From: Syntrophaceae bacterium
GTDB lineage: Bacteria; Desulfobacterota; Desulfomonilia; Desulfomonilales; Desulfomonilaceae
Reading direction: 5' to 3'
Assembly (NCBI GenBank): GCA_031292235.1
Contig: JARLHM010000191.1
Span: 1-34,187, forward strand
Length of the DNA stretch: 34,187 nucleotides
The position numbers and the translations under genes are program-made. Within the stretch, counting starts at the first letter, position 1, and each line of letters opens with the position of its first letter. Below are positions 26,809 through 28,917 of the stretch, one piece after another. A model generated the notes under the pieces. It worked only from the letters and a program-made list of their open reading frames with translations. It did not search any database and was not told the origin of the DNA.

Positions 26809-26838
26809 TTGACACAGTTGGCAGTGATTAGCTATCTT
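26809..26838 (+). promoter_or_regulatory. Putative promoter of the 26870-28256 cassette
   Basis: A consensus TTGACA and TATCTT are 18 nt apart. The predicted start is at about 26845, roughly 25 nt before the ATG at 26870. Confidence 0.5.
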
Positions 26839-26869
26839 TTGCCTGATAATAAAAACGAAGGTCCAGATA

Positions 26870-27187
26870 ATGATTCGAAAAGTCCTGGTAGCCGTGTTGT
26901 TGGCGCTGAGTCTTATAATGACAATATACGGAGGGTTTTTCCGTAAATTCTTGGTGTATGACAACCTGGAGAAATTCGATAAGTTGAAAAACGTTGGGAT
27001 AACAATAAAAGTCCCGGGTTATGAGAACGCTTCCGAGACTTTTACACCTGAGTCTCAGTGGTTTTCGGAGCCTGAAATGGTCCGGGCAATGACCTTTGAA
27101 GGGGTAAAGCGTTACAAGGACGGAAAACTCATCTCAAACTATCCTGATCTTCGTATGCTGAAGGGCCGGATCCCATGCCCGACCTGA
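26870..27187 (+). CDS. Small membrane-anchored protein, unknown function
   Basis: The 105-residue protein has an N-terminal hydrophobic segment (VLVAVLLALSLIMTIYGGFF) after MIRK, probably an uncleaved anchor, and a small outside domain with ITIKVPGYENASETFTPESQWFSEPEMVRAMTFEGV and a single Cys near the C-terminus (GRIPCPT). AAGG is about 9 nt before ATG and a promoter stands directly upstream. It is followed after 73 nt by the polyferredoxin gene on the same strand, so a joint role is likely but not shown. I recognise no family. Confidence 0.72.
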   Translation: MIRKVLVAVLLALSLIMTIYGGFFRKFLVYDNLEKFDKLKNVGITIKVPGYENASETFTPESQWFSEPEMVRAMTFEGVKRYKDGKLISNYPDLRMLKGRIPCPT

Positions 27188-27260
27188 ATCTAAAAATGGA
27201 CGTCGGGAACGTCCTAATACAAGTTGCTCATTGACAAGAAGCGAGTTAGGAGAATATTAC

Positions 27261-28034
27261 GTGGAAAAAATCAGGCTCAAGGTTCAGATAGCCTGCGTAG
27301 CGTTACTAAATCTTGGTTTATTTCAATGGCAAACAGTTTGTTTTCCGGTACTCAACTGTCATTCCTGTCCTACTGCGATATTCGCCTGTCCGGTTGGTAT
27401 CATTGGTCAATTCATCGGTCTGGGATTGATTCCTCTGAGCGTTGTCGGAATAGTGGCCATCGCCGGCCTAACTGTAGGGCGTTTCCTATGCGGCTGGGTA
27501 TGTCCATTTGGATTCCTCCAGGATCTCCTATACAAGGTTCCATATATAAAATTCGACATCCCTCGCTGGACCCGTTTTATAAAATATGGGGTCTTCGCCG
27601 GGTTGGTTGTCGCTGTTCCCTTTTTTCTGACGCCCGGGTTTCCAGCTTATTTCTGTCGGCTGTGCCCTGTAGCCACAATAGAATCGGCAGTTCCCTGGGC
27701 TGTAATAAATGGGACCACCGACATATTTTCTTTGACGCTGAGGCTTGTAATACTGTTTGCCGTGGTCGTTGCGGCAATGGGACATCGCCGATTCTTTTGC
27801 AAGGTTATCTGTCCTCTCGGGGCTGTCTTGGCGCCTCTTAACCGTTTTGCCTTGATCTTCCCAGAGCGAAACGACAAATGTACAGATTGCGGAGCCTGTA
27901 ACAAAGTGTGCCCAATGGAAACAAAACAAGGGGAATCGAAACTTGGGGTTTATGATGGAGCGCCCGAAGAGTGTATATCCTGTCTGGAATGCCGGGACAA
28001 ATGTCCAACCGACTCCATAAAAATATGGGGCTGA
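27261..28034 (+). CDS. Polytopic 4Fe-4S membrane protein (NapH/NosR-related)
   Basis: The 257-residue membrane protein has about five hydrophobic segments and many cysteine motifs: CHSCPTAIFACP near the N-terminus, CGWVCPFG, CRLCP, CKVICPLG, and two C-terminal ferredoxin clusters, CTDCGACNKVCP and CISCLECRDKCP. The paired CxxxCP membrane motifs are those of the NapH/NosR/RdxA group, which passes electrons across or along the membrane. The donor and acceptor are unknown. The ORF track starts at TTG 27231, but AGGAG lies 8 nt before the GTG at 27261, giving MEKIRLKVQ. It sits between a small anchored protein and a CooT-like protein. Confidence 0.88.
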   Translation: MEKIRLKVQIACVALLNLGLFQWQTVCFPVLNCHSCPTAIFACPVGIIGQFIGLGLIPLSVVGIVAIAGLTVGRFLCGWVCPFGFLQDLLYKVPYIKFDIPRWTRFIKYGVFAGLVVAVPFFLTPGFPAYFCRLCPVATIESAVPWAVINGTTDIFSLTLRLVILFAVVVAAMGHRRFFCKVICPLGAVLAPLNRFALIFPERNDKCTDCGACNKVCPMETKQGESKLGVYDGAPEECISCLECRDKCPTDSIKIWG

Positions 28035-28067
28035 TCCCTTTTAGTTTCCTACATGGAGGTCGTAAAC

Positions 28068-28256
28068 ATGTGTGAATTGAACGCCTATATATTACGCGAA
28101 GGTGAAGAAGAGCTGGTCATGGAAAGTGTTGGCTCGCTTGTTCCTGTTGATGGAAAGATTACCCTGAAGAGTATCTTCGGTGAAACAATTTCAATTAATG
28201 GCGCATTATTGGAAGTAGACCTGATTGGTCAAAAGATCCGGCTCAAACCCCTTTGA
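28068..28256 (+). CDS. CooT-family nickel-binding protein
   Basis: From the ATG at 28068, with GGAGG 8 nt upstream, the product is 62 residues and begins MCELNAYILREGEEELVMESVG. CooT-type proteins of Rhodospirillum rubrum and relatives are about this size, begin MCxA/MCE, and bind Ni(II) through Cys2 in a dimer. The later region KITLKSIFGETISINGALLEVDLIGQKIRLKPL fits the small beta fold. The track start at 28053 would hide Cys2 inside the protein and is rejected. The gene is 33 nt after the polyferredoxin gene. No CO dehydrogenase or hydrogenase gene is in the window, so the nickel target is unknown. Confidence 0.82.
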   Translation: MCELNAYILREGEEELVMESVGSLVPVDGKITLKSIFGETISINGALLEVDLIGQKIRLKPL

Positions 28257-28272
28257 TTTATAGAATCAAAGG
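28250..28272 (+). terminator. Hairpin overlapping the CooT-like stop codon
   Basis: CCTTTGATT and AATCAAAGG form a perfect 9-bp stem with a 5-nt loop; the TGA stop lies in the left arm. TTTAAGG follows, a short T-run, so it may be a weak terminator or a 3'-end stabiliser. Confidence 0.5.
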
Positions 28273-28313
28273 TTTAAGGTTCGCTGCTGAGCATGTGATT
28301 GCAAGTTTTGCTC

Positions 28314-28342
28314 TTGACAGCCAAGGAGCCCCTTTGTAAAAG
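28314..28342 (+). promoter_or_regulatory. Putative sigma70 promoter of the HNH gene
   Basis: A consensus TTGACA and TAAAAG are 17 nt apart, about 60 nt upstream of the ATG at 28402. Confidence 0.5.
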
Positions 28343-28401
28343 GTACGCGTAATTTCGGATTTTCCAATTGCAATTTCCGACCGGTGAGAGGCTTGCGACA
28401 A

Positions 28402-28917
28402 ATGTCATCCATGGAGGCGGTAATTGTACTTAACGCCGGCTATGAATTTATGGGGTTAATCTCATGGCGTAGGGCCATGACGTTGCTATTCAGTGGCAAA
28501 GTGGAAGTTCTCAAAGAATCCGATAAGGTTGTACGGACTGTCTCAAAAAGTTTTCGTATCCCGGCTGTAATAAGGCTGCTCAAGTTTATCCGCCAAATAT
28601 ATAGACGGGAAGTGCCCTTTTCCAGAAAAAATGTTCTAATCCGAGACGCGTTTACCTGTCAGTATTGTGGGGATGATTTCATCTCCAGTGAGCTAACGGT
28701 AGATCATATTGTACCAAAAGTGCAGGGTGGCGAGAACCGGTGGAACAACGTTGTGGCGTGCTGTAGGATGTGCAATGTGAAAAAGGGCGGAAGGACCCCG
28801 AGACAGGCGGGCATGAGTCTTATAAGACAACCCTTCAAGCCGACGATAATGGAATTCCTTAACGTATATTTGGCAAGGAAATTCGGGATTAACCTAAATG
28901 AGCTGCTGAGCGCCTAG
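28402..28917 (+). CDS. HNH endonuclease family protein
   Basis: The 171-residue protein starts with the segment VIVLNAGYEFMGLISWRRAMTLLFSGKVEVL, common to a widespread group of stand-alone HNH proteins. It has an HNH nuclease domain with CQYCGDDF, the catalytic VDHIVPKVQGGENRWNNVVACCRMCNVKKGG (His in DHI) and a second zinc-binding CxxC pair. These proteins are not restriction enzymes with a known partner; their role is unclear. GAGG stands 10 nt before the ATG at 28402; the track's GTG 28384 start has no such signal. It has its own promoter and is followed by a long non-coding gap. Confidence 0.88.
   Translation: MSSMEAVIVLNAGYEFMGLISWRRAMTLLFSGKVEVLKESDKVVRTVSKSFRIPAVIRLLKFIRQIYRREVPFSRKNVLIRDAFTCQYCGDDFISSELTVDHIVPKVQGGENRWNNVVACCRMCNVKKGGRTPRQAGMSLIRQPFKPTIMEFLNVYLARKFGINLNELLSA

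Follow-up and report, generated by a model that had tools for sequence, protein, structure and literature searches.

The CooT-linked locus of a Desulfomonilaceae genome

Does a run of three small genes that ends in a CooT-type protein encode a membrane electron-transfer chain that uses or services a nickel protein, as an earlier note on this DNA proposed, or do its members belong to different systems? The stretch analyzed (the window, 34,187 nucleotides) is contig G000:C36 of a Desulfomonilaceae MAG whose genome is 83% complete. The three genes, designated A, B and C, lie on one strand, as had been described:

26809..26838, + strand: promoter-like TTGACA-18-TATCTT 5' of A (10/12 consensus match)
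26870..27187, + strand: gene A, 105 aa with a single TM helix at the N-terminus, tail IPCPT-COOH
27176..27184, + strand: Cys-Pro-Thr tail codons of A (Cys and Thr invariant in 38/38)
27261..28034, + strand: gene B, polyferredoxin of 257 aa, ~4 TM helices, two-cluster ferredoxin domain at the C-terminus
27339..27341, + strand: codon of B Cys27, the cysteine that tracks partner type
28068..28256, + strand: gene C, CooT-family (PF10133), 62 aa, MCE start
28414..28917, + strand: HNH-family gene (HNH_5), constant neighbor of CooT in the family

The description of A as a small membrane-anchored unknown is upheld, as profile searches of Pfam and NCBIfam with A gave no match. B, which starts with a GTG at 27261 that is conserved across the genus, contains 19 cysteines and combines a Fer4_5 domain (E=1e-16) with a C-terminal dicluster domain. 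C is a clear CooT-type protein by its score against PF10133 (68 bits, cut-off 27) and by a match to the CooT structure PDB 6fan (E=5e-6). Its start at 28068, ATG-TGT-GAA, gives the predicted Cys2, and ATG-TGT/TGC-GAA is kept in all 7 genus sequences aligned.

The elements thought to bound the run fared less well. The TTGACA upstream of A exists and is invariant in 6/6 genus sequences, but promoter-type matches in the region are no more numerous than expected by chance (4 observed versus 2.8 +/- 1.9). At L052:3490-4060 an insert of 39 bases lies between the conserved TTGACA and the -10-like box; because the insert breaks the spacing, the promoter may work differently there. The hairpin that was said to close the run does fold 3' of CooT (z=-2.9) but lacks a T-run, and its conservation in the genus alignment ends at the nearest relatives. 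We therefore see no evidence for a terminator. An Rfam search of the window yielded no matches.

A-B is a widespread gene pair

A is present in 17/18 Desulfomonilaceae genomes, with B adjoining it wherever the flank reaches, and was not found in the other Desulfobacterota sampled. A profile grown iteratively from A detected relatives at 44 of 67 distant B loci, the remaining 23 being without A; these 44 A-type loci include L102, where the tail of A can be seen at the edge of a contig. They occur in Planctomycetota, Hydrogenedentota, Sumerlaeota, Omnitrophota, Verrucomicrobiota, Lentisphaerota, Armatimonadota, Aminicenantes and others. A lies directly upstream of B in nearly all of them, and in L116 and L118 sel genes sit between the two. 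A-B is thus a real and widespread pair, and a functionally undescribed one: no functional study was found in the literature on the pair, on CD1871/CD1871A or on sel-linked polyferredoxins.

In most B loci without A, the upstream slot holds a 44-55 aa protein that ends in CLSCIGI-x, with a C-terminal CXXC of the CD1871A type. The CXXC partner in L104 scores over the CD1871A cut-off, another falls below it, and one tested gave no match. Thioredoxin-like genes adjoin the CXXC-partnered B in L104, L119 and L126 and lie ~1.6 kb away in L069, and L113 has a thioredoxin-like reading frame upstream. In Desulfurobacteriaceae (L109, L110, L112, L114, L115, L117, L121, L125), the CXXC partner and B follow genes for an inositol monophosphatase and an NUBPL/Mrp-type Fe-S carrier. 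Four further B homologues (L074, L079, L098, L120) lie beside cation-efflux genes in clusters that resemble magnetosome ones, and the L074 cluster also encodes a trypsin+TauE protein.

Over half of the distant A-type loci are linked to selenium genes

At 24/44 distant A-type loci, selA, selB or selD lies on the same strand within ~5 kb, versus 0/23 B loci without A (raw counts in both cases, with kinship ignored). The sel-linked A-type loci span at least 8 phylum-level groups outside the family, and L075 would be a 25th such locus on a weak match only. Gene order differs among them, with SelA-SelD-SelB-A-B in L067, L083 and L111, SelD-A-B in L089, L096 and L123, and A-B-SelA-SelD-SelB in L062 and L066. 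In L072, L075, L076 and L081, A-B is followed directly by a gene that contains an in-frame TGA and encodes a secreted redoxin of deiodinase-like type.

At the level of whole genomes, SelD is over the cut-off in 31/35 A-type genomes tested versus 6/13 of the CXXC type, and three of the four A-type genomes under the cut-off have selB beside A-B. In a sample of Planctomycetota, SelD accompanies A-B in 9/9 genomes versus 127/190 (p=0.03), a weak co-occurrence because SelD is common in that phylum. Physical linkage is therefore the main selenium evidence.

Desulfomonilaceae themselves use selenocysteine, as indicated by SelB over the cut-off in 18/18 genomes and SelD in 16/18 (with an in-frame TGA in 15/18). 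Neither sel genes nor the redoxin occur beside A-B in this family, the window included. Since the A-B pair of the window lies away from sel genes, a selenium role for this copy would be an extrapolation from its relatives; we infer that the two genes have the same function in Desulfomonile as in those relatives.

Several other features were observed around these loci. The deiodinase-like selenoprotein (SYTUPPF) of L072 (1252-2943), L075, L076 and L081, all from Planctomycetota, is fused to a multihaem cytochrome. SelD with a C-terminal AhpD/CMD fusion (L067:890-2560, L066:4235-5854, L089:2880-4436, L096:2558-4216) is common in A-type genomes and contains no Sec, and an ordinary SelD with TGA is found in Desulfomonilaceae and in most SelD-bearing genomes of the CXXC type. 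We considered whether A-B is tied to the SelD-CMD fusion. This holds in many distant genomes but fails in Desulfomonilaceae, whose SelD is ordinary. Proteins without a Pfam match are encoded 3' of A-B in several phyla (L067:5747-6916, L067:6947-7771, L111:6155-7498, L128:5827-7815); they are of three kinds, two of which end in EYG or SYG.

Cysteines of B on both membrane faces and the invariant tail of A

In B (alignment A2, 66 proteins), the loops that contain Cys27/33/36/43 and Cys132/135 are poor in Lys/Arg, with 0.02 and 0.46 per 10 residues, whereas those that contain Cys77/81 and Cys180/184 are rich in them, with 1.26 and 1.36 per 10 residues. By the positive-inside rule B thus has cysteines on both membrane faces, with Cys27/33/36/43 and Cys132/135 outside and with Cys77/81, Cys180/184 and the ferredoxin domain inside. 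An AlphaFold2 model of B alone has a pLDDT of 86. We found no solved structure that matches the membrane part, and a fold search with B returned ferredoxin-domain matches only, none of them at E<=0.001.

The charges around the helix of A favor an N-in/C-out orientation in 23/38 proteins and oppose it in 8, and the domain past the helix is probably extracytoplasmic. Only Gly78, Cys103 and Thr105, the last being the C-terminus, are invariant in the alignment of 38 A proteins (A1). Variants of the tail with Ser are rare (CPS in L012, CFS in L190), and within the genus the tail codons show synonymous changes only. Selenocysteine at the C-terminus of A was considered and no case was seen, the tails inspected ending in Cys codons before the stop. 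The topology of the two proteins suggests electron transfer across the membrane to the outer tail of A.

Cys27 of B tracks the type of partner. It is found in 57/57 B proteins of the A-partnered class, in 6/19 of the CXXC class (CD1871A-type) and in 4/4 of the magnetosome type, as raw counts that ignore kinship and include L056 and L122, where the partner gene itself was not seen. The magnetosome-type proteins (L074, L079, L098, L120) keep the equivalent of Cys27 and are missing that of Cys132.

Proposed role of the A-B pair

We start from what was observed: the pair is conserved, the tail of A is invariant, the loop charges follow a topology pattern, Cys27 goes with the type of partner, and in other phyla the A family is linked to sel and Sec-redoxin genes. 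A-B is probably a transmembrane Fe-S conduit to the Cys-x-Thr tail with a connection to selenium. The fuller reading, that A-B is a two-gene membrane redox module that serves selenium-dependent redox chemistry and to which CooT does not belong, has in our estimate an even chance of being correct. In such a module a cytoplasmic ferredoxin would deliver electrons to B, the Fe-S clusters of B would carry them outward across the membrane, and the acceptor would be the Cys-x-Thr tail at the C-terminus of A, outside the cytoplasm, with this tail and Cys27 of B perhaps acting as a thiol or selenol relay. The electrons might be used for reductive selenium handling for the Sec pathway or, alternatively, A-B might reduce extracytoplasmic seleno- or thioredoxin-like proteins. 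Unlike the CXXC dithiol, A has a single tail cysteine, which counts against this reading, as does the absence of sel genes and of the redoxin beside A-B in Desulfomonilaceae.

In a more specific form, A-B would be a widespread but so far unrecognized part of how bacteria metabolize selenium. Its Fe-S wire would reduce selenium at the membrane, or pass it on, via Cys-x-Thr-COOH and so supply the Sec pathway as reductant or donor. We regard this form as possible, though the chances are against it.

The invariance of the tail can also be read structurally. The cysteine of A, perhaps together with the carboxylate, might be a ligand that completes an outer-face Fe-S cluster of B, in which case the two proteins would make up a single electron-transfer complex, the acceptor would be a separate, unlinked protein and A would carry out no thiol chemistry. 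A cysteine at a fixed distance from the C-terminus and an invariant Thr-COOH would fit such a ligand, as would the sum of outer-face and tail cysteines, which is seven in the CPT and typical CXXC arrangements alike. The neighboring thioredoxin-like and Sec redoxin genes favor thiol or selenol exchange instead, and we consider the structural role unlikely.

We likewise doubt that B is a NapH-like quinol dehydrogenase fed by menaquinol, with A as an accessory subunit and an incidental selenium linkage. The best curated NCBIfam match of B is indeed to the NapH/MauN family, with which it shares the Fer4_5 plus dicluster layout, but the scores are far under the cut-offs (68.9 versus 213 bits for TIGR02163 and 57.5 versus 234 bits for NF007013). 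No NapG/MauM-type ferredoxin partner was found among the ten window proteins scanned (23-32 kb), and the sel linkage recurs across phyla in differing gene orders. B is also far below the cut-off for NosR (NF046105, 36 versus 1000 bits).

CooT is a neighbor of A-B with partners of its own

Two conserved gene blocks are found in the Desulfomonilaceae. The first is speE-agmatinase-htrA-gmk-A-B, in which A-B usually follows gmk, and the second is CooT-HNH-(GT). They are joined as A-B-CooT-HNH in 7/7 genomes of the window's genus (g1) and in G012 (g7); where the contig extends far enough, gmk precedes this run and GT follows it. In g5 the blocks are separated by 11-12 kb and in G011 by 23 kb on opposite strands; in other genera they are on separate contigs. 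The refutation test of the earlier note (homologues scattered and unlinked in related genomes) thus gives a half-positive result: A and B are linked throughout the family, and CooT adjoins the pair in g1 and G012 alone. CooT and the HNH-family gene (28068-28917 in the window; L129-L138, L143) lie side by side in all Desulfomonilaceae genomes examined. In a tree of B the g1 proteins form one clade (100/99) while the position of G012 is unresolved, so the junction may be ancestral and often broken, or may have formed twice. CooT appears to be an independent neighbor of A-B that lies outside the module.

CooT has been linked to CODH maturation (PMC13056359). No CODH match was obtained in the window, where C is not part of a CODH operon, and the CODH/ACS genes of congeners are on other contigs. 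A full-length CODH is found in 12/18 family genomes, three of them from g1, and two further g1 genomes have fragments of it; ACS is present in 6/7 g1 genomes, being absent only from the incomplete G000. We considered a loss of CODH from the window's genome; a gap in the assembly is likelier, as ACS is missing only from this genome, which is 83% complete. The observation that no nickel enzyme lies nearby is accurate for the window, yet G000 encodes a full-length [NiFe] hydrogenase elsewhere, and the other genomes of the genus have ACS and, for the most part, CODH. With CODH/ACS elsewhere in the genus, CooT has ordinary partners there.

That A, B and CooT work together as a single system for using or servicing a nickel protein is very improbable: the gene order recurs throughout g1 and in G012, and the g5 spacing would suit an ancestral junction, but most genera unlink CooT from A-B yet keep CooT-HNH, a tblastn search detected no CooT near the 67 distant B loci, and CooT has CODH/ACS as its ordinary partners. 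What survives of the proposed nickel-servicing membrane chain is an electron-transfer pair without a described function.

Significance and comparison with known systems

A 2026 review describes the in vivo form of selenium and its donor system as incompletely elucidated, and prokaryotes as being without a known specific high-affinity selenium transport system (PMC13188914). For the uptake and reduction of selenium and its delivery to SelD, a redox pair found in the sel operons of many phyla provides a concrete genetic target. The analysis also suggests what membrane polyferredoxins of one CX3CP class, for whose membrane part we found no solved relative, are likely to do, and it clears away a misleading link to nickel.

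Gene C is a clear member of the CooT family by profile and has the Cys2, differing from described CooT in its location outside a CODH operon here and in a link to A-B that is not conserved. B resembles NapH/MauN (TIGR02163) in the CX3CP motifs of its membrane part and in the two-cluster domain at its C-terminus; beyond its low score and the missing NapG-type partner, it differs by an extra outer-face NCxxCP loop. DsbD, CcdA and ScsB resemble A-B in the role proposed here, the delivery of reductant through the membrane to thiols outside the cytoplasm, but A-B has no DsbD_TM domain (Pfam gave no PF02683 match for B), and its electron path would consist of Fe-S clusters. A-B as a replacement for DsbD/CcdA was rejected because 12/18 family genomes encode DsbD_TM proteins.

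SAO selenoproteins such as SaoC (model NF040734) end in Cys-Cys-COOH (PMC13188914). A shares with SaoC a short C-terminal cysteine tail and a selenium linkage, but its tail is C-x-T, no Sec was found in it, and it has no NCBIfam match. Another counterpart is CD1871A (NF040920) with its adjacent 4Fe-4S protein, in which a small one-helix protein likewise lies directly 5' of a B homologue and both small proteins have conserved C-terminal cysteine chemistry. The NF040920 profile did not match the A protein of the window or two distant A proteins. In contrast to CD1871A, A has an extra domain and one cysteine (C-x-T-COOH) in place of CXXC, and the A-type pairs are distinguished by their sel linkage and by Cys27 of B.
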